Under the pieces are notes generated by a model. It was not told the origin of the DNA. It did no database searches and was given only the letters and a program-made list of their open reading frames with translations. The position numbers were made by a program, and so were the translations under genes. This document shows, piece after piece, positions 259-12,759 of a stretch of 25,731 bases of DNA (position 1 is its first letter; the number at the start of each line of letters is the position of its first letter). This stretch comes from a virus: positions 1 through 25,731 of IMG/VR virus record IMGVR_UViG_3300012936_005754. One strand, 5' to 3'.

Positions 259-772
259 TTATAAATTTTAATATTTGTTCTACTCTTTGCATAGGAGAAC
301 CAGTTACCGTCAAATAAGGCTGACGTACACCTTCTAATACTGCTTTAAATTCTTCATCAATATCTTTTCTCCATACTTCATTTATACTTCTTACTCCATC
401 ATCTACAGAATTAAATTCTATAGGAAAATAAATATAATGAGTATATTCATGCTTTATTCTATTCCAAGTATCTTCAATATAATTATAAGTCATTGCTCTA
501 ATATTTTCCATAAACTTAGTATAAACTACTACATCCATATAACATCTATCTAATACTAGATTATTAGGCTGTAACAAAGCTTCTAAATGAAAACTACTAA
601 TAGCTAACTGAGTAGCATCAGTTCCTTCTTCATTTATAGGAAATCCATACTCTCCAACTGTACGAGTAGATTCATTAACAAACTCATACTTAGAAAGTTT
701 ATTTTTAAGTAATTCATATACAGTAGTTTTACCTGTACTACTTGCTCCTACTAAAGCTATTCGTTTTACCAT
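251..772 (-). CDS. NadR/AAA_28-type P-loop kinase or ATPase
   Basis: A 173-residue P-loop NTPase. Walker A is GASSTGKTT at residues 9-17, at the extreme N-terminus as in small nucleoside and nucleotide kinases. A DRCYMD segment near residues 75-80 resembles the lid/DRx region of NadR-like and thymidylate-kinase-like proteins, and VDDGVRS near 123-129 is a conserved element of the AAA_28 family. Phages carry such proteins as putative nicotinamide riboside or nucleotide kinases, but the substrate cannot be read from sequence. The gene overlaps the formyltransferase gene upstream (738-772) and the nuclease gene downstream. An exact TCGTATATTA element lies 50 bases before its ATG, inside the preceding gene, so it may have its own promoter. 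Confidence 0.75.
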   Translation of the reverse strand: MVKRIALVGASSTGKTTVYELLKNKLSKYEFVNESTRTVGEYGFPINEEGTDATQLAISSFHLEALLQPNNLVLDRCYMDVVVYTKFMENIRAMTYNYIEDTWNRIKHEYTHYIYFPIEFNSVDDGVRSINEVWRKDIDEEFKAVLEGVRQPYLTVTGSPMQRVEQILKFINV

Positions 773-1319
773 ATAAAGCTGCTTTTAAAAAATTACACCA
801 CATATAAAAACTTCTATCTCTTAATATACGAAATAAATCGTCTAATTCCAAATTAAATACATTAAAAAATTCTTTCATTATTACCTTTCCTTCATCTACT
901 CCTGGAGATACTCTATGTAGAACTGCTCCTGCAATACTATACTTACCTTCTTTAATTCCTTGAAAAGCTCTTATTTGAGGATCTTTACCTTTAAGTTCAG
1001 GATATTCAGTTATTAATCCTGGATGACCATTAAATATATTAAATTTTTCGCATATTTCAGGAGGCATAATTCTTAACCAACCGTGCAACGTTATTAATGC
1101 TTCCGGAAAGTTAACTAATAATTCTTCATAATCTTCTAAAGAAGGTTTATTAGGAAAAGTAAAGTAACCTTGTTTTTCAATACGAGGATCTATAGTACGA
1201 AGATGTTCAGGTCTTTCGTTAGTAATTATCCTATCTGGCCATCTACCGATAGATTCTGCTATATCAGCTATTTCAGATCCTGTCTGACTAAAGAACGTTA
1301 TCCAATGCATGTCTCCCAT
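738..1319 (-). CDS. PurN-like formyltransferase, candidate dPreQ1 formyltransferase (DpdN-like)
   Basis: A 193-residue formyltransferase of the folate-dependent formyl_trans_N fold. The N-terminal WITFFSQTGSEIADI aligns with the first strand and substrate loop of PurN. FNGHPG at 96-101 carries the catalytic Asn97 and His99 of the N-x-H motif, KGKDPQ lies at 110-115, and GAVLHRVSPGVDEGKVI at 131-147 holds the catalytic Asp142. PurN itself makes formyl-GAR in purine synthesis. Here the gene overlaps dpdA by 32 bases and shares the region with FolE, QueD, QueE and QueC. Published work on phage 7-deazaguanines proposed a formyltransferase, DpdN, that makes 7-(formylamino)methyl-7-deazaguanine in DNA, and this gene fits that role. 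An ordinary phage PurN is the alternative. An internal ATG at 1310 is another possible start. Confidence 0.72.
   Translation of the reverse strand: MGDMHWITFFSQTGSEIADIAESIGRWPDRIITNERPEHLRTIDPRIEKQGYFTFPNKPSLEDYEELLVNFPEALITLHGWLRIMPPEICEKFNIFNGHPGLITEYPELKGKDPQIRAFQGIKEGKYSIAGAVLHRVSPGVDEGKVIMKEFFNVFNLELDDLFRILRDRSFYMWCNFLKAALYGKTNSFSRSK
822..831 (-). promoter_or_regulatory. Candidate phage promoter element TCGTATATTA (internal copy)
   Basis: An exact 10/10 copy of the element found before folE, the thioredoxin gene and ssb, here preceded by TT to read TTTCGTATATTA. It lies inside the formyltransferase gene, 50 bases upstream of the ATG of the P-loop kinase. As an in-gene copy it is the least certain of the four; it could drive the kinase and nuclease genes or be chance. 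Confidence 0.35.
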
Positions 1320-2112
1320 TTGTAAACCATCTAAATTTTTGAATATTATTTTTAATTGTATTTAACTGATCAATATCAATATCTGAGTTTATCAGTTCAA
1401 ATAACTTCTGTCTTTCCTTACTCCAAAGTCCTTCCTGAGCATAAGTAATTCCTTTTATTCCGTGAACTACAGGATTAGAAGTATCTAATGAATATAGCCA
1501 ATCATAATCAGAATGCTTATAAAAAGAAAATTCTTGAGGTAATCCACATCCTAATAAATGATGTTTTCTATCTACATCTATTACTCCGTCTTTAACTAAA
1601 TCTCCAAGTAACTTAACACGTCCTAACATCCAACTAACGTATTTATTAGCATGCGGTACTGATTTATTATAATACGAATAATCAAACGATATTGCAATCA
1701 TATCAACATTAGCTTCATTCTTCATATAATTATAACAATCTACTATTTCATCGTAAGTTTTACCTTGAACTACTCCTATCTTCCCACTATGCTTATAACC
1801 TAATCCTTTATTATTCCAATCTTCCATTTTATCAATAGTAGCATAACCGTCTTCTAAAACATCAGGTACTATATACCATGTAGGTTTTAACTCATTTACC
1901 CAGTAGTTAAATCTGTCAGCATCAAAAGCCTCCTCTAATTCAAATATAGAATTATCTAATATTATTTCTCTACCTTTCAATGCTGCTGCTTTAAACTGTT
2001 TTAAATATTCTTCATCTTCTTCAAATAAATGAACTAAAGCGTAGTCATAATCGGTAAATCTTTGTATCTCTTCAAAAATACTTTTAGGAGCTTCGTGTGC
2101 TATTTTAATCAT
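1288..2112 (-). CDS. dpdA: DpdA-type DNA guanine transglycosylase
   Basis: A 274-residue TIM-barrel protein that keeps the tRNA-guanine transglycosylase (TGT) motifs in order: DNSIFE at 53-58 (TGT DSGGFQ, base-recognition Asp), GVVQGK at 113-118 (TGT VQGG), LLGCGLPQEF at 186-195 (TGT MGVGYPED) and SLDTSNP at 208-214 (TGT FDCVLPTR, nucleophile Asp, here D210). The C-terminal zinc motif of tRNA-acting TGT (CxCxxC...H) is absent, and the protein is shorter than the roughly 370 residues of TGT. This suits the phage DpdA group, which exchanges guanine in DNA for a 7-deazaguanine base after replication. It is flanked by the formyltransferase (32-base overlap) and lies near four preQ0 synthesis genes. 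The DpdA subfamily cannot be assigned by eye. Confidence 0.8.
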   Translation of the reverse strand: MIKIAHEAPKSIFEEIQRFTDYDYALVHLFEEDEEYLKQFKAAALKGREIILDNSIFELEEAFDADRFNYWVNELKPTWYIVPDVLEDGYATIDKMEDWNNKGLGYKHSGKIGVVQGKTYDEIVDCYNYMKNEANVDMIAISFDYSYYNKSVPHANKYVSWMLGRVKLLGDLVKDGVIDVDRKHHLLGCGLPQEFSFYKHSDYDWLYSLDTSNPVVHGIKGITYAQEGLWSKERQKLFELINSDIDIDQLNTIKNNIQKFRWFTNGRHALDNVL

Positions 2113-2311
2113 CTTTTAAATCTATATTATTATCTACATTAGCTATTTCTTCTGATAGTTTTGCTATTGCTTCATCTAATTTATCTAAAACTTCATTTTC
2201 ATTTTGTACCTTTTTTACTGCTTCTTTTATAGCTTTTATTGCAATAATATAAGGTACCATATCCATATCATGTGACTGAACGTATACTTTATGATCTTCT
2301 AAATTTATCAT
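2105..2311 (-). CDS. Small charged coiled-coil protein, unknown
   Basis: A 68-residue protein not recognised. Residues about 22-60 form a long amphipathic, Lys/Glu-rich helix (AIKAIKEAVKKVQNENEV and onwards) with heptad-like spacing, probably a short coiled coil, and the tail is acidic. There is no transmembrane segment and no cysteine. Its stop overlaps the dpdA start by 8 bases and its start lies one base after the stop of the membrane protein gene, so it is co-transcribed and probably translationally coupled. It could be a small partner of a neighbour, but nothing in the sequence shows which. Confidence 0.6.
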   Translation of the reverse strand: MINLEDHKVYVQSHDMDMVPYIIAIKAIKEAVKKVQNENEVLDKLDEAIAKLSEEIANVDNNIDLKDD

Positions 2312-2312
2312 T

Positions 2313-2606
2313 TTAATTACCTATTTCGTGTTTATTTAATTCTCCTAATTCTTTAATAAAGGTTAAAACCTTATGACCTAATGCAGCAAATATTGCTAGA
2401 CCTATTCCTCCTACCATTGACTTCATTTCAGTTACAAAGATATTAGCAGTAAATGTATATCCTAAAGTAGCTATAGTATCTAAGCCTATCATTACTGAAG
2501 CCATAGATAAGATATGTTTAGGGAAAAACTTACATAAAGCTAAAACAATATAATTGACTAATATCAAAATAGGTAATAAGCCTACTCCTATAACAAAATC
2601 ACTCAT
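2313..2606 (-). CDS. Small integral membrane protein, possible holin
   Basis: A 97-residue protein with three hydrophobic stretches at roughly residues 3-25, 33-55 and 64-82, and a short charged C-terminus (KELGELNKHEIGN). Size and three-segment layout match class I holins, but many phage membrane proteins look alike and no endolysin gene is adjacent, so holin is only a suggestion. The ATG at 2606 is preferred over an in-frame TTG six bases earlier because it gives an 8-base ATGAGTGA overlap with the stop of the upstream MazG-like gene, the coupling style used throughout the region. Confidence 0.55.
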   Translation of the reverse strand: MSDFVIGVGLLPILILVNYIVLALCKFFPKHILSMASVMIGLDTIATLGYTFTANIFVTEMKSMVGGIGLAIFAALGHKVLTFIKELGELNKHEIGN

Positions 2607-3135
2607 TATCAAAGAATTTTTTTAAGTTTGGTCTATAATAGTTATTACTTTTCATTACTTTTTTATCTCGTGTTCTATAGACAACAAAATGTTCTCCAAC
2701 CTTTTCATAGTGACACGGTTCGCCTTGCTCTTTAGTACGTGATTTAACGGTAGCTTGTGCTTCCTCTTCGCTTGAGCAAGCCTTAGACATATTCGACCCT
2801 TGTACTTCGAGATACGCTGGCCATATTTTATCTTTAAGACCATGTAGCATAGTTCCGTTACCCAACGAAACGTAGGCAATATCACATAAAGCATCAAGCA
2901 CTTCAACAATATTGCCCTCTTCGCAGGCAACTTTATACTCTTCAAGTTCTTCAAGAATAAAATCGTATACGAATTGCCAATCTTTTTTAGAAGGTATTGT
3001 AGGTTCATAATTATTAGGTTTACCAAATGTACTATTAAATTCTTCAACTTCAGATACAAAAGGTACGTATCCTTCTTTTGACTGTACTTTATACTTTTCA
3101 GTATCTACCGGAAATAAAGATAATTGTTTACCCAT
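2599..3135 (-). CDS. MazG-like nucleotide pyrophosphohydrolase
   Basis: A 178-residue all-alpha NTP pyrophosphatase. The central helices carry ILEELEEYKVACEEGN (about 55-70) followed by VEVLDALCDIAYV (about 72-84), the ExxE...ExxD magnesium-binding pattern of the MazG/HisE/dUTPase-2 superfamily. SNMSKACSSEEEAQ (about 114-127) is a recognisable feature of phage and HisE-like members. The family hydrolyses NTPs or dNTPs to the monophosphate and pyrophosphate. Phages use it to shape nucleotide pools or to lower ppGpp-type alarms. It lies between FolE and the membrane protein. A role in steering the guanine nucleotide pool for the 7-deazaguanine pathway is possible but not shown. The ATG at 3135 sits just after the folE stop. 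Confidence 0.75.
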   Translation of the reverse strand: MGKQLSLFPVDTEKYKVQSKEGYVPFVSEVEEFNSTFGKPNNYEPTIPSKKDWQFVYDFILEELEEYKVACEEGNIVEVLDALCDIAYVSLGNGTMLHGLKDKIWPAYLEVQGSNMSKACSSEEEAQATVKSRTKEQGEPCHYEKVGEHFVVYRTRDKKVMKSNNYYRPNLKKFFDNE

Positions 3136-3138
3136 AGT

Positions 3139-3840
3139 TTAATGTTTACAAACTCCTGCGAGTTCTATATTCTTATAAAATTCAGCTCTAGCAGAAGACT
3201 CATTTAAGAAACATCCTGAAAGTTTAGCTGTTTGCATTGAAGCTCCGTGATGTTTAACTCCTCTACAGCTTACACAGTTATGAGTAGCATCTATCATTAC
3301 TGCAACTCCAATATTACCTTCACATATTTTATCTACTGCATGATGGATAGCTACTGTTAGTTGTTCTTGAATAGCTCCTCTTCTACCAAAATGCTCTACT
3401 ATTCTATTTAATTTAGATAAACCTACTACTAAACCATCTTTAGAAGGAACATAAGCAATACTTACTCTTCCTCCAATAGTTTGATGATGATGAGAACACA
3501 TAGAAGTAACAGGTATATTACTTTCTTGAACTATACCGTCATATCCATCAGAAGGAAAAGCAGTAATTTTAGTTAAAGGTTCAAACCTTCCTGCCCATAA
3601 ATCATTTACGTATGCTTTAGCAACTCTCATAGGAGTATCTTCTGAGTTAGGATCATTCTGCCAATCACAACCTAATGCTTCTAAGAATCGAGCATAAGCT
3701 GCTGCTGCATTATTTATAATTTTTTGTTTTTCAGAAGTAGATAATTCTCCTCCTTCACCTTTCTCGGCTAACTGTAAAGATATACCGTTCGCATATCCAG
3801 CTTTTACAAGTTCAGTACCTTTTATTGCTTTTTTTGCCAT
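3139..3840 (-). CDS. folE: GTP cyclohydrolase I
   Basis: A 233-residue GTP cyclohydrolase IA, which converts GTP to 7,8-dihydroneopterin triphosphate, the first step to both folate and preQ0. The catalytic core is complete: VTSMCSHHHQTIGG (111-124) supplies zinc ligands C115 and H118 and the neighbouring catalytic His; LSKLNRIVEHFGRRGAIQEQ (141-160) is the GTP-binding signature; IDATHNCVSCRGVKHHGA (183-200) supplies the third zinc ligand C189. The N-terminal 40 residues are lysine-rich and variable. With QueD, QueE and QueC nearby, it most likely feeds 7-deazaguanine synthesis rather than folate. It is the first gene after a TCGTATATTA element that sits 18 bases from its ATG, so it probably heads a transcript running to the left edge. 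Confidence 0.95.
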   Translation of the reverse strand: MAKKAIKGTELVKAGYANGISLQLAEKGEGGELSTSEKQKIINNAAAAYARFLEALGCDWQNDPNSEDTPMRVAKAYVNDLWAGRFEPLTKITAFPSDGYDGIVQESNIPVTSMCSHHHQTIGGRVSIAYVPSKDGLVVGLSKLNRIVEHFGRRGAIQEQLTVAIHHAVDKICEGNIGVAVMIDATHNCVSCRGVKHHGASMQTAKLSGCFLNESSARAEFYKNIELAGVCKH

Positions 3841-3857
3841 TTATTTACTTTATTAAT

Positions 3858-3867
3858 TAATATACGA
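3858..3867 (-). promoter_or_regulatory. Candidate phage promoter element TCGTATATTA upstream of folE
   Basis: An exact copy of the repeated element, in the 35-base gap between the phosphoribosyltransferase stop and the folE ATG, 17 bases before that ATG. No Bacteroidota TAnnTTTG promoter is visible in the gap. The position suits a -10-like element read by a host or phage-encoded sigma factor. Confidence 0.55.
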
Positions 3868-3875
3868 TTTTTAAT

Positions 3876-4280
3876 TTAATTATCCAAATAATTTTGAATA
3901 GTTTTTGAATCTTTCCTTTCCCACGGATATACTATCCATCCGTAATCTTCTTCTATTTTTTTTGCAAAAATATCGGGCTCAACTATAGAAATACTTTTGT
4001 AGTGTAGAGTAGCAAAAATGCTATCTTTAAAATCATTTTGCCAAAGTTTTAAAGTTTCACCTGAATCTGCAATATCATCTATTATAAGTTGGTTTGGATC
4101 TCCTACTATAGGTGCACTTCTATATTTAATATTATATCTATGAGAATATAAAATAGCTAGTAAACTACCTCCTCTTGGGATACCTGAAACGCTTGTTATA
4201 TTATCGTTAATTCCATTTGCTATTTCATCTAGCATCTTATAGACTTCATCCCAAGAAATATAAACTTTTTTTACTCCCAT
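3876..4280 (-). CDS. Xanthine-guanine phosphoribosyltransferase-like protein
   Basis: A 134-residue type I phosphoribosyltransferase. The PRPP loop LIIDDIADSGETL lies at 65-77. The N-terminal VYISWDEVYKMLDEIA, the PRGGSLLAILYS segment (35-46) and the C-terminal PD...WIVYPWE pattern (107-121) follow the layout of bacterial Gpt (YVTWD..., SRGG..PGA..A, WI..PWD). Gpt transfers guanine or xanthine to PRPP to give GMP or XMP. It sits inside the 7-deazaguanine block, between FolE and QueE/flavodoxin. DpdA base exchange releases free guanine, so a salvage role is attractive, but other purine bases cannot be excluded. The protein is shorter than E. coli Gpt (152 residues). Its ATG overlaps the preceding 57-codon gene by 10 bases. 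Confidence 0.75.
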   Translation of the reverse strand: MGVKKVYISWDEVYKMLDEIANGINDNITSVSGIPRGGSLLAILYSHRYNIKYRSAPIVGDPNQLIIDDIADSGETLKLWQNDFKDSIFATLHYKSISIVEPDIFAKKIEEDYGWIVYPWERKDSKTIQNYLDN

Positions 4281-4444
4281 GAATTATTCATAACCCAATT
4301 TCCAGTAGAATAATCTGCATATGAAGTTTTATCTACTGTTCCTAAAACCTCTTTTAAATAGTCCCATTGAGCTGGGGTAATGCTATAATGATGTACTCCG
4401 GAAACAAATCCTCGTAACCAATCTACAAACTCTTTTTCATTCAT
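4271..4444 (-). CDS. Small 57-residue phage protein (FxxWLxGF-type)
   Basis: A short frame from ATG 4444 to TAA 4271-4273 fills the whole space between two genes. It starts in an ATGA overlap with the flavodoxin stop and ends 10 bases into the phosphoribosyltransferase gene, strong positional evidence that it is real. The 57 residues include FVDWLRGFVSG (6-16) and TPAQWDYLKEVL (22-33). This helix-turn-helix-sized pattern (hydrophobic-WLxGF, then TxxQW..I/LK..L) recalls small conserved proteins of unknown function seen in many tailed phages. No catalytic motif, cysteine pair or membrane segment is visible. Function unknown. Confidence 0.75.
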   Translation of the reverse strand: MNEKEFVDWLRGFVSGVHHYSITPAQWDYLKEVLGTVDKTSYADYSTGNWVMNNSWE

Positions 4445-4968
4445 AACTTAAATTCTTTTTTAATCTGTAAAACCCATTTTTGTAATCTCTCTTCTGTTAA
4501 CTCTTGCTGGTTATCTTCATCTAAGGCAAGTCCGTAAAATGTATTTTCGTCTACTAATGCTAATGAAGTCTCAAAATCATAAGTTTCATCTTTTTCAGTA
4601 TAACCTATTAATTTACCTCCTCCTTCTATAACTACTTTTCCTAATATACCTATACCGTCACAAAACCATTCATCATATCCTAATTGATCTCCCAAACCAA
4701 ATATAGCTACTTTTTTCCCTGTAAAATCAAGAGTTTTAAAATCTTCAAAATAATCTTCCCAATCACTCTGTAACTCACCATCATACCAAGTAGGAATACC
4801 TAAAATATAATTTTCATGAGTTTTCCAATCTTCATCAATAAGATCAGCTACTTCTGTAACAGTAACGTCATCAGGTTCTGCTGCTGATCCATCAAGTAAT
4901 CTAACTAAATCTTCTTTTATTAATTCGGTATTACCCGTATCTGTTCCGTAAATTAATTTTATACGCAT
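4441..4968 (-). CDS. Flavodoxin (long-chain type)
   Basis: A 175-residue flavodoxin. The FMN phosphate loop is GTDTGNTE at 8-15; the first FMN-stacking loop is GIPTWYDGELQSDWEDYFED (about 57-76); the second is FGLGDQLGYDEWFCDG (about 90-105), with an aromatic Tyr on the isoalloxazine side. Length and an insertion in the last third match the long-chain class. Flavodoxin is a soluble one-electron carrier. It overlaps the queE stop by 10 bases, and QueE is a radical SAM enzyme whose cluster is reduced by flavodoxin in known systems, so a dedicated QueE reductant is the best guess. Supply of electrons to another redox enzyme is an alternative. The protein is very acidic, as usual for the family. 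Confidence 0.92.
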   Translation of the reverse strand: MRIKLIYGTDTGNTELIKEDLVRLLDGSAAEPDDVTVTEVADLIDEDWKTHENYILGIPTWYDGELQSDWEDYFEDFKTLDFTGKKVAIFGLGDQLGYDEWFCDGIGILGKVVIEGGGKLIGYTEKDETYDFETSLALVDENTFYGLALDEDNQQELTEERLQKWVLQIKKEFKL

Positions 4969-5735
4969 CTTTCAGTATTAAAAGCCATTATATGTGATCT
5001 ACCTGTAAATCTCCATCCTCTATCTCTAACAAAATCCATTACTACTGGATACGATTCCATTAATGATTCTCTGTCATCACCAGCAGGCATAGCCCATACT
5101 TTCTCATTAGGAATATTTAATGTATCTAATAATTCTTGTACTTCTTCAACCATAGATAATTCTTTATCTAGAACTGGTTTAATATGATAATCGGAATGAT
5201 ATTCTATAGACTTTTTTATAGCATCTACATTAACTCTTTTAGAATTATGTTTCCTTATCATTCTTTCATCTACTATATCGCCTTGAGGCGTTTTAACGCC
5301 AAGAACGGGAATGCTATTAGAAAACTTGGGACTAATAGAAAGCAAGTTAATAGGGTAATCAGTAGGAAGAAAATGACTACCTTCAGTTTCAATAGTAATA
5401 AAAATATTTCTTTCATTTGCAAAATGTGTTAATTCATTAACTAAAGCAGGGTGCATAGTAGGAGAACCTCCAGTAAGCATCATTTCTGATATATGAGGAT
5501 GTTTATCGTACATATCTATTATATCTTGAAAACAATATGTTCCTTTTTCTGGATGGATACTTGTATACCAAGAATCACACCATCCTCCTTCACCAAAATA
5601 ACATCTATGAGTACATCCTGAAGTTCTAACTACTATCGTAGGATAACCTGCTCTACTACCTTCAGATTGAACTGCTGTATAAAGTTCTAATACTGCAAGA
5701 GTTTTGTTATAATCTTTTACTCTTTTAAGCCCCAT
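4959..5735 (-). CDS. queE: 7-carboxy-7-deazaguanine synthase (radical SAM)
   Basis: QueE converts 6-carboxytetrahydropterin to 7-carboxy-7-deazaguanine using SAM and a 4Fe-4S cluster. From ATG 5735 the protein has 258 residues. LELYTAVQSEGSRAGYPTIVVRTSGC (16-41) is the QueE N-terminal signature (family pattern: F.S.QGEG...G.P..F.R..GC); MLTGGSPTMH corresponds to the radical SAM TGGEP strand; LSISPKFSNS is the QueE S..PK segment. The cluster cysteines are C41, C45 and C53, i.e. CX3CX7C, longer than the usual CX3CX2C. The frame is open upstream to 5846, but the ATG at 5735 is chosen because it overlaps the queD stop by 11 bases and restores the family's N-terminal length. The gene's stop overlaps the flavodoxin start. 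Confidence 0.9.
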   Translation of the reverse strand: MGLKRVKDYNKTLAVLELYTAVQSEGSRAGYPTIVVRTSGCTHRCYFGEGGWCDSWYTSIHPEKGTYCFQDIIDMYDKHPHISEMMLTGGSPTMHPALVNELTHFANERNIFITIETEGSHFLPTDYPINLLSISPKFSNSIPVLGVKTPQGDIVDERMIRKHNSKRVNVDAIKKSIEYHSDYHIKPVLDKELSMVEEVQELLDTLNIPNEKVWAMPAGDDRESLMESYPVVMDFVRDRGWRFTGRSHIMAFNTERCV

Positions 5736-6189
5736 ATGTTGCTGCGTTTTTACCATGTTCCATAAACTTAACTTTGGTAACTTTAACTCTACCATCAGTT
5801 TCAGTTTGAACAAATTTATTAAGTTTATTGAATATGAATTCAGCAAATTTTTCAGCTCCTGTTGCAGGAATAATTCTGATTTGAGCTACTCCCGACTCTC
5901 CCATCTGTTGGAAAGCTTTTATAAATGGATCATCTTCAGCTATAATCATAGTATGATCAAACATATAATCCATCCACTCTTTTGGAGATTTACCATCAAT
6001 TTTAGTTTTAGCTCTTTTCATTCCTCCGAAATCCCAAACCCAATTTCTTTCATCTAATTCACCTTCAAAATATACTTTAAATGATATTCCATATCCATGA
6101 ACAAATCTACAGTGTGTTTCTTTAGCTTTCCATTGACGAAACACTGTACTAAATCCGTCAAAAACTTTACTTGATTGAAATATTCCCAT
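5725..6189 (-). CDS. queD: 6-carboxy-5,6,7,8-tetrahydropterin synthase (variant metal site)
   Basis: A 154-residue member of the PTPS/QueD family, which turns dihydroneopterin triphosphate into 6-carboxytetrahydropterin, step two of preQ0 synthesis. Visible landmarks are THCRFVHGYGISF (25-37; catalytic Cys27), WVWDFGGMK (50-58, family pattern VxDFxxLK), MFDHTMI (76-82, LDHxxLN), PATGAEKFAEFI (108-119, PTxENLAxxI) and KFMEHG (141-146, substrate-binding Glu). In E. coli QueD zinc is held by three His; here the first is Phe17 (STVFRQW) and the third is Tyr33 (HGYG), leaving only His31 clearly conserved. I recall similar FRQW...HGY variants in other phages, so this is probably a working subfamily rather than a broken gene. 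It overlaps queE by 11 bases. Confidence 0.88.
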   Translation of the reverse strand: MGIFQSSKVFDGFSTVFRQWKAKETHCRFVHGYGISFKVYFEGELDERNWVWDFGGMKRAKTKIDGKSPKEWMDYMFDHTMIIAEDDPFIKAFQQMGESGVAQIRIIPATGAEKFAEFIFNKLNKFVQTETDGRVKVTKVKFMEHGKNAATYGA

Positions 6190-6200
6190 TTTATAATAAT

Positions 6201-6398
6201 TTAAACTAATTCTTCAATTATACCAATAACCTCACTAAAAACTAATACAATAGCAGCAGATATTAAACTAATAGGTATTAAGATATATCCAACTATTCTA
6301 ATAGCTGATTTTATGAAACTAAGTAATTGGTGTAATTTAGGATCTGGTATTCTATGACCATTAACCGATACTGAAGTATCTTCTTTTTTGTTTTGCAT
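6201..6398 (-). CDS. Small single-pass membrane protein, unknown
   Basis: A 65-residue protein: a polar N-terminus (residues 1-30, NKKEDTSVSVNGHRIPDP...), a basic turn, then one long hydrophobic stretch at about 34-58 (IRIVGYILIPISLISAAIVLVF) and a short acidic tail. This predicts a single membrane pass. It is not recognised as a known family. It stands between queD, whose start is 11 bases downstream of its stop, and the glycosyltransferase. A 64-base leader (6399-6462) precedes it, and TTGTATATTA at 6469-6478, one base off the repeated promoter-like element, lies about 70 bases before its ATG. There is no evidence for a direct role in the modification pathway. Confidence 0.55.
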   Translation of the reverse strand: MQNKKEDTSVSVNGHRIPDPKLHQLLSFIKSAIRIVGYILIPISLISAAIVLVFSEVIGIIEELV

Positions 6399-6462
6399 AT
6401 ATTTGTTTTTAAAGTGGTGCTACGACACTATTGTCTATAAATATAATCTAAGATAAGAAAAA

Positions 6463-7170
6463 TTACCTTAATATACAACTTTTTTCGTGACCAATTATTA
6501 AATTTTTATTAACGTAAATAAAGTGACCTTCTTCCCTTAAAGATTTACATATTCCAGCATCTTCAGAAGTAAACTCTTTAATATTTTTATCAAAATTATA
6601 CCAATAAGGTCTAAACCAAGGGTACTTTAAAGTTTCTAAAACTCCTTTTTTAAATAGTATCCATCCAAATCCTGTATAATCAACTCTAAAGATATCTGGA
6701 AGTATGTTTAATGTTTTATCATCTAAAAAATCGTAATGACCGTTTTGCATATAATCATTTTTTTCCATTTTAATTACTGTTGCATAATTATGATTATTTT
6801 GCATTTTGTATATTCCTGAAGCAATTGGTTTGTCCATATCTAATAAAGTCGAAAAATCAGAAGGAGAAAAAACCATATCTGAATCTATCCACATAACATA
6901 ATCATAATCAATATCACCTTGGAAAGGTTTTTGATTTACACCTTTTAAGGTATTTCCTCCTAAACATTTATTACGAGCGTAGTAAACTACAGCATCATAA
7001 CCATTACTAAATACAGGAGTAATATTATTTTTAGAGCACCATGCAAGGAGCTCAGTCCAAGATTGTAAAAAATGATTTGAAAAAACTCTACCTGGTATAC
7101 AAAATACTACGGTTTTGTTTTTTACTGATTTTAAATCTATACTCTGTCTATAAATTTTTCTTCTTCTCAT
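6463..7170 (-). CDS. GT-A fold glycosyltransferase
   Basis: A 235-residue glycosyltransferase-like protein. TVVFCIPGRVFSNHF (20-34) is a typical first strand; YDAVVYYARNKCLGG (58-72) carries the ARN element seen in GT2-like enzymes; YVMWIDSDMVF (91-101) supplies the metal-binding DxD motif (D96-S-D98) that ends the nucleotide-sugar domain; FTSEDAGICKSLREEG (about 202-217) resembles the ED/catalytic-base region; IIGHEK near the end gives a possible third metal ligand His. No signal peptide or membrane segment is visible, so it is probably cytoplasmic. Its acceptor is unknown: DNA bases, surface glycans and virion proteins are all used by phages. It lies between the tRNA-like gene and the queD/queE block, so sugar addition to modified DNA is conceivable but unsupported. 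Confidence 0.78.
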   Translation of the reverse strand: MRRRKIYRQSIDLKSVKNKTVVFCIPGRVFSNHFLQSWTELLAWCSKNNITPVFSNGYDAVVYYARNKCLGGNTLKGVNQKPFQGDIDYDYVMWIDSDMVFSPSDFSTLLDMDKPIASGIYKMQNNHNYATVIKMEKNDYMQNGHYDFLDDKTLNILPDIFRVDYTGFGWILFKKGVLETLKYPWFRPYWYNFDKNIKEFTSEDAGICKSLREEGHFIYVNKNLIIGHEKSCILR

Positions 7171-7177
7171 ACTTAGT

Positions 7178-7289
7178 TACCCCAGGAGGGACTCGAACCC
7201 TCGACCTCTTTGACCTCTTAGCTTTTCACGATCGTATCTATTTTGCACCGAGTTAAGCCAAAGCGAGCTACCTACTGCTCCACTGGGAA
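7178..7289 (-). tRNA. tRNA-like gene with about 39 extra bases in the anticodon loop
   Basis: Read on the minus strand from 7289: acceptor TTCCCAG (7289-7283) with CTGGGGT (7185-7179), six pairs counting one T-G plus a first-position T-T mismatch; D arm GAGC/GCTC (7280-7277/7268-7265) around AGTAGGTA; T arm GAGGG-TTCGAGT-CCCTC (7202-7186); five-base variable loop AGGTC (7207-7203). The only match for the anticodon stem is CTTTG (7263-7259) with CAAAG (7212-7208), but 46 bases lie between instead of 7. CTTAA after the stem would place anticodon TAA (Leu) if the insert were removed, but this is not secure. The body resembles bacterial Met/fMet-type tRNAs (GGAGCAGT.GGTAGCTCG, AGGTCG). CCA is not encoded. 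It may be a tRNA with an unusual insert or a tRNA pseudogene. Confidence 0.65.
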
Positions 7290-7293
7290 AATT

Positions 7294-7437
7294 TTAAATA
7301 GTACGGTTAGATCTTTTATTATCCCACTGTACTCTTTTACTCTGCCCTAAATATTTAAATTTAGAGATTCTTTTGTTAACACTCTCTCTTTCAGAATTTA
7401 ACTGAGTATTACCGTTTCTTTGTTCCTTACTTGACAT
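7294..7437 (-). CDS. Small basic protein of 47 residues, unknown
   Basis: A short frame from ATG 7437 to TAA 7294-7296, filling the gap between queC and the tRNA-like gene. Its ATG overlaps the queC stop by 11 bases (GTCAAGTAAGG), the same coupling used by the certain genes nearby, which is the main support. The 47 residues are hydrophilic and basic (for example SVNKRISKFKYLGQSKRVQW, 19-38), without cysteine or membrane segment, suggesting a nucleic-acid-binding or structural peptide. It is not recognised as a known family. Confidence 0.55.
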   Translation of the reverse strand: MSSKEQRNGNTQLNSERESVNKRISKFKYLGQSKRVQWDNKRSNRTI

Positions 7438-8257
7438 AGTCTGCTAATAATTTTTCTACGTGATTTTTAGCTACTTCATAATCTACAGGACCAGTTTCAT
7501 TAGCATAAGCAACTGGATCAGGTCTTCCTAATTTTATAAAAGCTTCAATTCTTTCTACTGAAGAAGCTGATTTATAATCTGAATACCATTTCCAAGCGTT
7601 AGTTTCAGGTCTATGATAATGTTTGATAGGTTTATATGAAGTGTTAGTTCTTGAATAAACTTCATTAAAATCAATACCTAATTTATCACACAATACTTCT
7701 CCATCTTTTAAGATATCAAATTTATCACCTTCTAAATAAGGAGTAAAGTAACCTACTTTATCAGCATCCCAGTTACCCTCTCTAAATGCATGATCATCTG
7801 CATCTCTAAAGTCTTGTCTACAGTCAGGATAAATAGCATGATCTCCTGCATGTATTCCTAAAGCAATATCAGTATCATTTCCATTAGCATTAGCAGCAGA
7901 TAAAGCTACTGCTTGTACTAAAGAAGCAAATATTTTATTACGATTAGGTACTACTGTAGCTTTCATATTATCTTCTTCATAATGACCTTCCGGAACATCA
8001 TCTCCTCCTTCAACAAGATTAGAATTTAATAAGTTAACTAAACCATCTAATTTAATAACTTGATAATTTACAGTATGACCATTTTTTGCTAAATAATCTA
8101 CTAATTCTTGAGCTCTATCTAACTCTACTTTATGCTTTTGACCATAATCAAAAGACATTGCTGTTACATTATCATACTCAGATAAACATCTAAGTAATAA
8201 GGTTGAGGAGTCCATCCCTCCTGATAAGGACACTACTACGTTTTTCGCTATTTTTAT
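7427..8257 (-). CDS. queC: 7-cyano-7-deazaguanine (preQ0) synthase, zinc-motif-less, non-ATG start
   Basis: QueC makes preQ0 from 7-carboxy-7-deazaguanine, ATP and ammonia. The PP-loop SGGMDSST, the SFDYGQKHKVEL segment, VVPNRNKIF and GIHAGDHAIYPDCRQDF are all QueC landmarks. The C-terminal region keeps VERIEAF and G.PDP..Y, but the four zinc cysteines of canonical QueC (SCY...HCGxCGTCVER) are replaced: TSYKP has Ser, and SDYKSASSVER has Asp/Ser/Ser. No ATG exists at the 5' end. A stop at 8264-8266 bounds the frame, and the only codons resembling starts are ATA at 8257 or 8251 and GTG at 8233. GTG would remove the first strand (KNVVVSL) needed for the PP-loop fold, so ATA 8257 is preferred (276 residues). 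A sequencing error for ATG is possible. Confidence 0.9.
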   Translation of the reverse strand: MKIAKNVVVSLSGGMDSSTLLLRCLSEYDNVTAMSFDYGQKHKVELDRAQELVDYLAKNGHTVNYQVIKLDGLVNLLNSNLVEGGDDVPEGHYEEDNMKATVVPNRNKIFASLVQAVALSAANANGNDTDIALGIHAGDHAIYPDCRQDFRDADDHAFREGNWDADKVGYFTPYLEGDKFDILKDGEVLCDKLGIDFNEVYSRTNTSYKPIKHYHRPETNAWKWYSDYKSASSVERIEAFIKLGRPDPVAYANETGPVDYEVAKNHVEKLLADYVK

Positions 8258-8917: not shown

Positions 8918-10060
8918 TTAATTATTTATTAAAATACTTATTTTATTTGCTAGTTCTTTAAACCATTCTTTATTATGACCTTTAGTCGTCTCTGCTGCTG
9001 TTCCAATTCTAATACCGCTAGTTTCAACAAAGCTTCTAGGATCATTAGGTATTCCATTCTTATTAACTGTAATACCGTTCTCCTCTAATCTATCAGCTAC
9101 TTCTCTTCCGCTATATTTCTTATCAGATAAATCTATAAGTATTAAATGAGAATCTGTACCTCCTGTAAGAACTGATATGTTATTTTGATTAAATACTTCA
9201 CACATAGCCTTAGCATTCTCTACTACTCTACTACAGTATCCTTTAAATTCAAGAGTATTAGCTTCTATAAAACATTGAGCTTTAGCTGCTATTATATGCA
9301 TTAAAGGACCTCCTTGAGTACCTGGAAAGATAGCTCCGTTAATCTTTTTAGTATACTTTTCACTATTCCATAATATTATTCCTCCTCTAGGACCTCTTAA
9401 AGTTTTATGAGTAGTAGAAGTAACTACATCAGCATAAGGAAAAGGACTAGGATATACTCCTCCTGCTATTAATCCTGAATAATGAGCCATATCTACTAAT
9501 AATATAGCTCCTACTTCATCTGCTATTTCTCTAAATCTTTTCCATTCTATAACTCTAGAGTAAGCACTTGCTCCTGCTATAATTAATTTAGGTTTAACTT
9601 TTAAAGCAATATCTCTTATATTAACATAATCTAAAAGACCGTTATTATTAACACCGTAGGAATAAGCATCATATATCTTTCCTGATATATTAGGTTTACT
9701 TCCATGAGATAAATGGCCTCCACTAGCTAAATCCATTCCAAGTATTTTATCGCCTGGTTTTAAAAATGCTTGAAAAACTGCAGTATTAGCGTTAGCACCG
9801 CAATGGGGCTGGACATTAGCGAAGTTACAACCATATAACTTTTTTAATTCTTCGATAGCGAGATTTTCTATTTCGTCCATGTGTTCACACCCATTATAGT
9901 ATCTCTTACCTGGATATCCTTCTGCGTATTTATTGGTAAGGATTGATCCTGCTAAATCCATTACTGCTTTACTAGCAAAATTTTCACTAGCTATAAGTTC
10001 AATAGTATTATCCTGTCTTTTACTTTCTTTAGCTAATATATCTGTTATTCTTTTATACAT
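8918..10060 (-). CDS. glyA: Serine hydroxymethyltransferase
   Basis: A 380-residue PLP enzyme that interconverts serine plus THF with glycine plus 5,10-methylene-THF. Landmarks: [11 protein letters not shown] (19-29), [21 protein letters not shown] (43-63, in part), GANANTAVF (88-96), [14 protein letters not shown] (about 190-203), [14 protein letters not shown] with the PLP lysine (about 217-230), the [11 protein letters not shown] substrate loop, and RIGTAA near the C-terminus. It is about 35 residues shorter than E. coli GlyA, the difference being mainly terminal and loop trimming. It follows NrdA by 12 bases, consistent with thymidylate and nucleotide supply. It could also feed 10-formyl-THF to the formyltransferase at 738-1319, through host FolD. 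Confidence 0.95.
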
Positions 10061-10072
10061 TTTAACTTAAAT

Positions 10073-11791
10073 TTATCCTTCGCAAGCACTACAAGTTAGT
10101 AATTCTTGAGAAAATTGTTGAGCTGCATTTAAATTATACTGGTAATAAAGAGATTTAATACCTTTTTCAAAAGCATCTAAATGTAATTTTATTACATCTC
10201 TAGGAGGTGAAGATGGATGTATTGCTAAATTGATAGACTGTCCCATATCTATATACTCCTGTCTTTGAGCTGCTAAATTAACTACATCTACTTGAGAAAT
10301 TTCGTGAAATACTTTAAAAACTGATTTTTCATGATCAGATAAAAAGTCTAAATGCTGTACTGAACCACCGTAAGTTAGTATACTATTCCATACTTCCTCT
10401 GTATCTTTATCTTTTTCTTTTAATAATGCTTCTAATTCTCGATTTTTCCATTCTACTTGAACTTTAGCAACCATTTTCTCACCGTAGTTTATTTTATGAG
10501 GTTCTATACCTTCACTGAAAGCCATTGTAACTCCTCCATCTATAAAACTAGTAGATTTTTTAGGAGCTTGTGCCATTCTACTTGTATTACGTTCTCCATA
10601 ACCTTCAAGCATTTTTGGTTCTCCAAAATGTTTAGCCATCCATTTAGAAGCTCTATCTCCTTCAGCTCTCATAGTAGAAAATATATCTGCATTGATTTGA
10701 AAAGATTTTATTGATCCAAATTCTACTAAATTCTTCTGTAGGTATGAATGAAATGCTGATATTCCTAATCCTATTGCTCTATGTTCCTTTGCAAATTTAA
10801 TTGCTGCAGATATTCCAGGAATTTTTTCTCCTTTTTCAATATACTCTTCAATTACACAATCAAGCATAATATTCATATCAAATAAAAAGTTAGGATCTTC
10901 TTTAATTTCATCCCAATGGTAAGCTACTATAGAAGATAAACAACATGCAAAAGTTTTATCGTAATCGGTATACTCAATAGCTTCAGCACATATATTTGCA
11001 TTACGTATTTCTAATCCTTTATCTATATAAGCTTGACATATACCTTTATTTGAATTTTCAATATCTAAAATATAAGGAAATCCTGCTTCTTTTCTTGTAT
11101 TTAAAATCTTAGTAAATATTTTTCTTTTTTGCTTATCTCCTTCCTTTAATGCTTTTCTGAATCCTTTAGGTAATACAACTGCGGTAGTAACTGTTGTTAA
11201 AAATCTCTGTTTATCTTTAGGTATTCTTTCAGTACCTATATCTAAAAAATCCATAATTTCAGGATGGTCTGCATTACAGTAAAATGTTATAAACCCTCTT
11301 CTTTGAGAATTTTGAGCAGTTTTACTCATCATATCTGCGTAAAGCTCAATCCATTCCATTATACTATTTGCTTCACCGCCTGATCTTATAGGAGAACCAA
11401 TCTCTCTAATATCAGAAACATTTACAGCAGTGCCTGCTCCCCTACTAGCTAATATACCAGTTTCATAAAATCTTTTATAAATTCCATCTATAGAATCTTC
11501 TATGACTGAATGGTTACAACTAATAGGTAGATTATATTCAGAACCAAAAGATCTTAAAACAGGAGTAGAAAAAGAAGTCCATCCTTTAGACACATATTCT
11601 TCGAACCTTTTTCCTATATCCTTTACATATTCTTTAGATTCTTTAGTAGTAGCTAACTTATTAGCATATTTTTGAACTGTGTTACAAATTGTTTGAAATC
11701 TTTCTTCTGCTGTTTCTCCTTTTTCTAAATAACCTCTCTCTAACATTTCTATTTGCTCAGTATCTTTGAGCCATTGTAACTTTAGTCCCAT
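10073..11791 (-). CDS. nrdA: Ribonucleoside-diphosphate reductase class I, alpha subunit
   Basis: A 572-residue catalytic subunit reducing NDPs to dNDPs. Conserved residues are in order: STPVLRSFGSEYNLPISC with the first redox Cys (C92); NICAEAIE (266-273) with the catalytic Asn-x-Cys-x-Glu triad (N266, C268, E270); CCLSSI with the second redox Cys (C284); the LYYQ tyrosine pair (Y549, Y550) of the radical path; and a C-terminal CSAC (567-570) for thioredoxin-linked reduction. It lacks the N-terminal ATP-cone of about 90 residues found in E. coli NrdA, so dATP inhibition at the activity site should be absent. The ATG overlaps the nrdB stop by 10 bases, a coupled nrdB-nrdA pair. Confidence 0.95.
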   Translation of the reverse strand: MGLKLQWLKDTEQIEMLERGYLEKGETAEERFQTICNTVQKYANKLATTKESKEYVKDIGKRFEEYVSKGWTSFSTPVLRSFGSEYNLPISCNHSVIEDSIDGIYKRFYETGILASRGAGTAVNVSDIREIGSPIRSGGEANSIMEWIELYADMMSKTAQNSQRRGFITFYCNADHPEIMDFLDIGTERIPKDKQRFLTTVTTAVVLPKGFRKALKEGDKQKRKIFTKILNTRKEAGFPYILDIENSNKGICQAYIDKGLEIRNANICAEAIEYTDYDKTFACCLSSIVAYHWDEIKEDPNFLFDMNIMLDCVIEEYIEKGEKIPGISAAIKFAKEHRAIGLGISAFHSYLQKNLVEFGSIKSFQINADIFSTMRAEGDRASKWMAKHFGEPKMLEGYGERNTSRMAQAPKKSTSFIDGGVTMAFSEGIEPHKINYGEKMVAKVQVEWKNRELEALLKEKDKDTEEVWNSILTYGGSVQHLDFLSDHEKSVFKVFHEISQVDVVNLAAQRQEYIDMGQSINLAIHPSSPPRDVIKLHLDAFEKGIKSLYYQYNLNAAQQFSQELLTCSACEG

Positions 11792-12759
11792 GCGTCTTCT
11801 GTAATTAAATTTTGTTTATTATAATCTGTGCTTTTCTGTGCGAAGAAATCGAAAGCTATAGGTGCTTTTGCCATTCTATCGAAATATTCTGTTGGTCTTA
11901 ATAGTTCCTTATCTACTTCATATTCTTTTTCATAACCTATTAACTCCAGTCCATGATTTAATCTTTGTTTAGTATATTCTTTTATAACAGCTTTAGGCAT
12001 GAAGTCTAACTCTCCATTCTCAAATACCCAATCTATTAATTCTTCTTCTGCTTTTAGAGCTTTTCTTATATTTCTACGGATTTTATTTTCCATTTCTAGA
12101 TCAAACCATTCAGGATTTTCTTCTCTAATAATTTTAATTAATTCAGCTCCAAACTGTGCATGTATTGCTTCTTCTTTACTTGTAGCGTTAACAACAGTGG
12201 TAAAATTAGTAAACATATTTTTATACTTACCAAATGCAGATATTGTTAAAAAATTAGAAAATAAACTTGCGTTTTCAACTAAAAGAGAAAATAAAATTAG
12301 AGATTTAGTAAATTCTTTATTAGATCTAGATGTATAACCTTCTAAGTATCTATTTAGGTACTTTACTCTACCGGCTATTTGCGGTATTTCCATTACGTTT
12401 TCAAATACATCTTCTAAACCTAATAGATCTAATCCTTGTTTATATGTTCTTCTATGAACTACTTCATTTCCGGCAAATACAAAACCTGCATCTGCTATTT
12501 CAGTTTTCGGTAACCTAATATCAACTCTAGCCCAAGATGTTTTAACTTTATTTTCTACTACTCCTATACACAACATTGACCTTTTCATTGCTTCCTGTTC
12601 ATGAGGTTTAAATTTAGTTTTAAAATCTCTTACATCTCTATCGTAATCAAAATGTTCAGGGGTCCAGAAAGCTTCCCAAATCACATTTGCATATCTAAGT
12701 AAATGTGGGTAGTCGTTTCCTCTCACATCTTCGCTGGGTTCGAATATGTCTTTTTTCAT
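11782..12759 (-). CDS. nrdB: Ribonucleoside-diphosphate reductase class I, beta subunit
   Basis: A 325-residue radical-generating subunit. Metal and radical residues by eye: E69 (VVEN) as probable first carboxylate, E99, H102 and Y106 in NEVVHRRTY (E-x2-H-x3-Y, Tyr106 being the expected radical tyrosine), E162 in LLVENASLF, and E197 with H200 in KEEAIH. The C-terminal ITEDAWD is acidic, consistent with docking on NrdA. The first ligand is Asp84 in E. coli but appears to be Glu here. Tyr is kept, so it is not the tyrosine-less class Ic form. Whether iron or manganese is used cannot be told. It is the first gene after the structured gap downstream of the helicase; GTATATATAAAG at about 12836-12847 might serve as a weak promoter. 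Confidence 0.94.
   Translation of the reverse strand: MKKDIFEPSEDVRGNDYPHLLRYANVIWEAFWTPEHFDYDRDVRDFKTKFKPHEQEAMKRSMLCIGVVENKVKTSWARVDIRLPKTEIADAGFVFAGNEVVHRRTYKQGLDLLGLEDVFENVMEIPQIAGRVKYLNRYLEGYTSRSNKEFTKSLILFSLLVENASLFSNFLTISAFGKYKNMFTNFTTVVNATSKEEAIHAQFGAELIKIIREENPEWFDLEMENKIRRNIRKALKAEEELIDWVFENGELDFMPKAVIKEYTKQRLNHGLELIGYEKEYEVDKELLRPTEYFDRMAKAPIAFDFFAQKSTDYNKQNLITEDAWD

Follow-up and report, generated by a model that had tools for sequence, protein, structure and literature searches.

The 25,731-base virus record IMGVR_UViG_3300012936_005754, a phage fragment with a GC content of ~0.31 that we call the window, carries all its main genes on the minus strand, to which every window gene position below refers. 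Among them is a cassette that runs from position 8251 down to 251 in the order QueC, glycosyltransferase-like protein, QueD, QueE, flavodoxin, Gpt-like phosphoribosyltransferase (PRT), FolE, MazG-like protein, DpdA, formyltransferase and P-loop kinase. A preliminary description, made from the letters of the DNA, had placed a module for 7-deazaguanine modification of phage DNA at 738-8257. Every gene that it named was recovered on that strand and at, or very close to, its stated position, as judged from Pfam, PHROG, relatives and an AlphaFold model; corrections concern the starts of two genes, QueC and QueE. The source is probably an Immutovirus-like marine phage with a host among the Bacteroidota (Flavobacteriia).

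The pathway from GTP to preQ0 (7-cyano-7-deazaguanine) is complete in the window, and Pfam and PHROG family matches bear out the four enzymes claimed for it. FolE (3139-3840; Pfam E 1e-42, PHROG E 1e-60) is the GTP cyclohydrolase I that would turn GTP into dihydroneopterin triphosphate, QueD (5725-6189; Pfam PTPS E 7e-16, PHROG QueD E 1e-40, and alignment) is a 6-carboxytetrahydropterin synthase, QueE (4959-5735) is recognised by PHROG (E 1e-49), by the PDB QueE structure 5tgs (E 3e-7) and by alignment, and QueC (7427-8251; Pfam E 1.5e-36, and comparison with relatives) is the preQ0 synthase. All score under the NCBIfam equivalog cut-offs and are thus divergent members of their families. The most likely starts, from comparison of the genes, are 5735 for QueE and 8251 for QueC. 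At 8249-8251 the QueC start codon reads ATA here and ATG in relatives (MAKNVVVSLSGG), which could be either a sequencing difference or a non-standard start codon. QueD is an HGY variant, in which HGY replaces the HGH of the typical zinc site; immuto, MMDA13 and BUCT-ZZ01 share HGY, whereas the QueD proteins of 9g, Dp-1 and Vibrio 033B retain HGH. The QueE cysteines are spaced C-x3-C-x7-C in all five aligned cassette members, the B. subtilis type being CxxxCxxC. A near-identity DNA search against phages returned a single match, of 72 bp, in FolE, and PADLOC flagged only QueC, by a model match, and QueE, by a weak match of viperin type, neither of which we take as a defence system.

The gene at 1288-2112 encodes a predicted DNA guanine transglycosylase, DpdA, of a subfamily common to Flavobacterium phage immuto and Campylobacter phage CP220. 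This 274-residue protein has no sequence matches in Pfam, NCBIfam or the PDB. In a search of phage records it is 72.5% identical to the immuto protein annotated DpdA, and the next matches, at 43%, are Campylobacter Firehammervirus proteins annotated 'hypothetical'; against the CP220 protein identity is 43.6% over 94%. The fold is what places it. An AlphaFold model built from 19 homologues (predicted local distance difference test, pLDDT, 89) was searched with Foldseek, and the top 50 matches were all tRNA-guanine transglycosylases (TGTs; best E 2e-9), with a TGT-type TIM barrel aligned over 238 residues (VIA Z 17.9); thus, the structure prediction that had been proposed as a check, with the fold search made on it, groups the protein with TGTs rather than with non-TGT TIM barrels, the outcome that would have refuted the earlier reading. 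Invariant in 21 sequences, CP220 included, are D53-N54-S55, D84, Q116-G117, G188 and D210 (motif S-L-D210-T-S-N-P), residues that we mapped to TGT by motif order rather than by residue-level superposition. These aspartate and base-binding motifs and the modelled fold uphold the earlier reading of a DpdA-like transglycosylase with TGT motifs in order. Only two cysteines are present (C126 and C189), so that the zinc-binding Cys/His site of true TGTs is absent; with the fold and the aspartate motifs in place, the protein is therefore TGT-like but no standard tRNA TGT. Judging from homology and model together, it would very probably put a 7-deazaguanine in the place of guanine in phage DNA.

Overlapping dpdA by 32 bp, the gene at 738-1319 encodes a PurN-fold formyltransferase (Pfam PF00551 E 2e-7), in agreement with the preliminary description; in its model (pLDDT 87.5), PurN structures rank as the best matches. 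The PurN catalytic triad N97/H99/D142 is kept in 20 of 20 formyltransferase sequences. The S12-N13 loop, which in PurN holds the phosphate of glycinamide ribonucleotide (GAR), is altered, with an invariant Glu at residue 13 and a variable residue 12, and such a loop would fit an unphosphorylated substrate. Against the PurN equivalog of NCBIfam the protein scores 35.8 bits, the cut-off being 150.1. What, then, would it formylate? In relatives that carry a thermonuclease (SNase)-like gene, as the window does at 1-258 (5' part, cut by the contig end; NCBIfam thermonuclease E 2e-5), QueF starts ~370 bp past the start of the SNase gene, which for the window puts the expected position ~120 bp outside the contig end. 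In the relatives, QueF is a nitrile reductase with both modules complete (E 5e-68 to V. cholerae QueF), and the ESKSxKLY motif is conserved, as are the catalytic Cys and Asp. QueF is very probably the last gene of the module, lying just beyond the window, and the modification would then be based on preQ1 (7-aminomethyl-7-deazaguanine). The altered GAR loop, together with a strict linkage to QueF and DpdA, points to the aminomethyl group of preQ1 as the group formylated, and we predict a preQ1/dPreQ1 N-formyltransferase.

That linkage was followed in environmental phages from two directions. With the window DpdA, 31 IMG/VR loci were found, 20 of them non-redundant. Where flanking sequence allowed, a formyltransferase comes after DpdA at 18 of 19 loci, QueF is present at 17 of 18, and an upstream PRT at 15 of 17. 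Only one locus in this set, L030 (IMGVR_UViG_3300001528_000621), is without both formyltransferase and QueF; its DpdA is 57% identical, no FolE, QueD, QueC, QueF or formyltransferase is recognisable in its 187.8 kb record, and the phage may draw on preQ0 or preQ1 made by its host. Two others, L019 and L024, have cassettes without FolE near DpdA, and the 89 kb record of L024 is without any FolE. As a further check, IMG/VR was scanned with a formyltransferase profile and with no selection on DpdA. At least 557 related stretches were found, and 78 new loci were kept and counted without removal of redundancy. DpdA adjoins the formyltransferase in 78/78, and QueF lies downstream in all 74 for which the flank on that side reaches 1.2 kb or more; the P-loop kinase is found in every locus with flank and the PRT in 57 of the 63 having at least 5 kb upstream. 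Two loci (L095 and L117) have rearranged preQ0 genes, yet keep the block DpdA-formyltransferase-kinase-QueF intact. DpdA, formyltransferase, P-loop kinase and QueF are the constant core of the cassette, and a chance arrangement is ruled out, dozens of divergent contigs having their genes in this one order.

With gene identities, folds, conserved catalytic residues and synteny established, we infer the activities of these enzymes, a QueF in the window phage, the product, resistance and a recycling of guanine. FolE, QueD, QueE and QueC would make preQ0 from GTP, and QueF, expected just outside the window, would reduce preQ0 to preQ1. DpdA would put the 7-deazaguanine into phage DNA in exchange for guanine, and the PurN-fold enzyme would move a formyl group from 10-formyltetrahydrofolate to the aminomethyl arm, either before or after the base enters DNA, to give formyl-preQ1 (fdPreQ1) in DNA. 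DNA modified in this way would resist host nucleases that recognise guanine, and the Gpt-like PRT would probably return the displaced guanine, by way of GMP, to GTP, the substrate of the pathway. The earlier proposal, in which the phage synthesises preQ0 and places it, or a compound derived from it, in its DNA instead of guanine, thus gains family matches, a TGT-fold DpdA model and synteny with immuto. We consider it highly probable, from homology and structural models, that the cassette combines preQ0/preQ1 synthesis, DpdA exchange and N-formylation to formyl-preQ1 in phage DNA. In a 2023 report by Cui et al., 2'-deoxy-7-(formylamino)methyl-7-deazaguanine (fdPreQ1) was reportedly found in phage DNA and a formyltransferase, DpdN, predicted, and DpdA3 is said to be defined there as allowing complete guanine replacement. 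Several points tell against so full a reading. QueF itself is not in this contig, as the record ends ahead of the expected position; the formyltransferase loci all come from related phages, and part of the co-occurrence may therefore be common descent; and the assignments to DpdN and DpdA3 are presumptive. Title and abstract searches of the literature for DpdN or DpdA3 returned nothing relevant.

The PRT (3876-4280) is a Gpt-like purine phosphoribosyltransferase of the xanthine-guanine phosphoribosyltransferase (XGPRT) family, for which profile match and recurrence lead us to predict salvage of displaced guanine. Its family profile matches an archaeal XGPRT (1vdm) at E 1e-20 and that of E. coli at E 3e-10, and it keeps the phosphoribosyl pyrophosphate motif, IDDIADSG, and the purine-binding PW[ED] motif, here YPWE. 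Relatives sought among ~50,700 phage records came from immuto, Campylobacter Firehammerviruses, Cellulophaga phiST-type phages, Brevundimonas phages StAshley and MaInes, Sphingomonas MMDA13, Synechococcus BUCT-ZZ01 and Vibrio Queuovirinae, to which come two unannotated human-gut records and a pair of short fragments, likewise unannotated. In one representative of each of the seven named groups, from immuto through BUCT-ZZ01 and Vibrio, the record has queuosine-pathway genes; the longer human-gut record is without QueD and QueC. For scale, the window QueE matches 113 phage records at E 1e-3, which is a lower bound on QueE carriers. An N-terminal PRT domain, absent from the annotation, is also found on the FolE of MMDA13 (L041:7941-8828), Vibrio 033B (L045:7821-8723) and Vibrio 1.117.O (L046:7800-8723), the MMDA13 match being the weakest of the three. 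A PRT beside or fused to FolE makes metabolic sense because DpdA frees one guanine per exchange, and its recurrence in at least six lineages, with fusions to FolE in phages of Sphingomonas and of Vibrio, suggests that the displaced base is recycled. We therefore propose, tentatively and as something possible though short of probable, that 7-deazaguanine phages have a dedicated guanine-recycling step in which a Gpt-like enzyme turns freed guanine into GMP and thence GTP, as a part of the system that has gone unrecognised. The PRT substrate may instead be preQ0 or preQ1. The PRT is not mentioned in the MMDA13 paper or in Hutinet 2019 (PMC6884629), and title and abstract searches for a Gpt link returned nothing relevant.

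Could the Gpt-like enzyme serve general nucleotide scavenging, its position in the cassette being incidental? Purine salvage genes are frequent in phages, six of the 63 formyltransferase loci with sufficient upstream flank have no PRT, and the FolE of phage 9g is short and has no PRT domain. General scavenging nevertheless seems to us unlikely, if still to be reckoned with, since the PRT relatives, barring the two human-gut records and the two short fragments, belong to phages with queuosine genes in at least six lineages, and fusion to FolE is found in two lineages.

A second question concerns the formyltransferase, which might be a GAR transformylase that boosts the supply of purine (GTP), leaving plain preQ1 as the mark in DNA. 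Its nearest structures are PurN enzymes and it keeps their catalytic triad; additionally, the pathway uses up GTP, and the phage has further nucleotide-metabolism genes (ribonucleotide reductase, RNR, and the MazG-like gene). We judge this improbable, however, given that the PurN phosphate loop is not retained (N13 has become an invariant Glu and S12 is variable), that the equivalog score is far under its cut-off, and that dpdA and queF accompany the gene at every locus; formyl-preQ1 in DNA is the better reading. That the cassette supplies preQ1 to the host tRNA queuosine pathway, with the transglycosylase acting on tRNA, is very improbable: FolE-QueDEC-QueF is the standard tRNA queuosine precursor pathway, the fold is that of TGT and Hutinet et al. 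propose a tRNA role for phages with the pathway but without DpdA (PMC6884629), but the transglycosylase lacks the TGT zinc site and is related to a protein found in those Campylobacter phages that are reported to have highly modified DNA (PMC6884629), and no QueA or QueG was recognised within the annotated neighbourhood.

The preliminary description also held that the functional unit might be larger by way of interleaved genes. Of these, the Gpt-like and MazG-like genes are conserved partners, as is the P-loop kinase, but the flavodoxin and glycosyltransferase are not. The kinase (251-772; Pfam AAA_28 E 8e-18), of the AAA_28 / NadR-thymidylate kinase type, lies between the formyltransferase and QueF, and a related kinase adjoins DpdA in CP220. 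A PDB search revealed no relative pointing to its substrate, and it is the main unexplained conserved part of the cassette; it may complete the recycling loop or act in another dedicated step. The MazG/PRA-PH-like nucleotide pyrophosphohydrolase (2599-3135; Pfam PF01503 E 1.6e-9, PHROG nucleotide pyrophosphohydrolase E 4e-27) is a conserved neighbour that travels with the cassette. The flavodoxin (4441-4968; Pfam E 6e-20), a plausible electron donor for QueE, was rejected as a core part, being found in the window, in one related locus (L019) and in 0/78 formyltransferase loci. The glycosyltransferase-like protein (6463-7170; PHROG 1574 / 34859), present in a minority of relatives, was rejected as well and probably lies outside the functional unit.

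The rest of the window holds genes for RNR, thioredoxin and serine hydroxymethyltransferase (SHMT), along with T4-type replication and tail genes, the latter two read from translations. SHMT (window only; 0/78 formyltransferase loci) and thioredoxin and RNR (mere neighbours, the RNR being unlike that of relatives) were likewise rejected as core parts. At 8918-12759 the SHMT gene, absent from relatives, lies between thioredoxin and RNR, and the NrdA and NrdB that relatives have at this position share just 25-34% identity with those of the window; gene comparison thus suggests that the RNR block has been exchanged. Scans for promoters and terminators gave signals no more frequent than chance.

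If guanine recycling holds true, a known DNA-modification system would have a component so far unrecognised; the idea, which can be tested, bears on how phages that exchange a large share of their guanine deal with what is set free. Modification of the formyl-preQ1 type, linked in this analysis with a single cultured phage genus, would also be common in environmental phages, with at least 557 IMG/VR stretches carrying a formyltransferase relative.

Among known systems, phages that combine preQ0 genes with DpdA have 7-deazaguanine in their DNA and withstand restriction (PMC6884629). The archaeosine system of Enterobacteria phage 9g and the Queuovirinae, in which the tailoring enzyme is Gat-QueC (PMC6884629), shares with the window the preQ0 pathway and DpdA, and its Vibrio members have the PRT-FolE fusion, but its DpdA is of another subfamily and no formyltransferase is listed in the annotated regions. 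CP220, a Campylobacter Firehammervirus, is nearer in having the same DpdA subfamily and an adjoining P-loop kinase of the same type; FolE, QueD, QueE, QueC and a Gpt-like PRT are also present, but scattered through the genome, and unlike the window cassette it has no QueF and no formyltransferase. The CP220 protein is presumably the published DpdA3. The DNA in the CP220 system is reported as highly modified by 2'-deoxy-7-amido-7-deazaguanosine (dADG; cited in PMC6884629), and DpdA-independent insertion has been suggested for Campylobacter phages (PMC6884629), to which a DpdA of the CP220 type offers an answer. The closest sequenced relative of the cassette is in immuto (Flavobacterium phage vB_FspM_immuto_2-6A, NC_055915), with QueD-QueE-PRT-FolE-MazG-DpdA-formyltransferase-kinase-QueF in one row and QueC upstream, the genes shared with the window standing in the same order; DpdA is 72.5%, the formyltransferase 52% and QueE 72% identical. 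Unlike immuto, the window has a flavodoxin, a glycosyltransferase, a nearer QueC and an SNase gene ahead of the expected QueF. The insertion question in Campylobacter phages was reportedly addressed in 2023. The fdPreQ1/DpdN system of Cui et al. 2023 reportedly resembles the cassette in its DpdA and formyltransferase and in the QueF expected here, with formyl-preQ1 predicted in DNA. The type of system is already known from a Flavobacterium phage, and the Gpt-like PRT as an added component seems to be what is new here.

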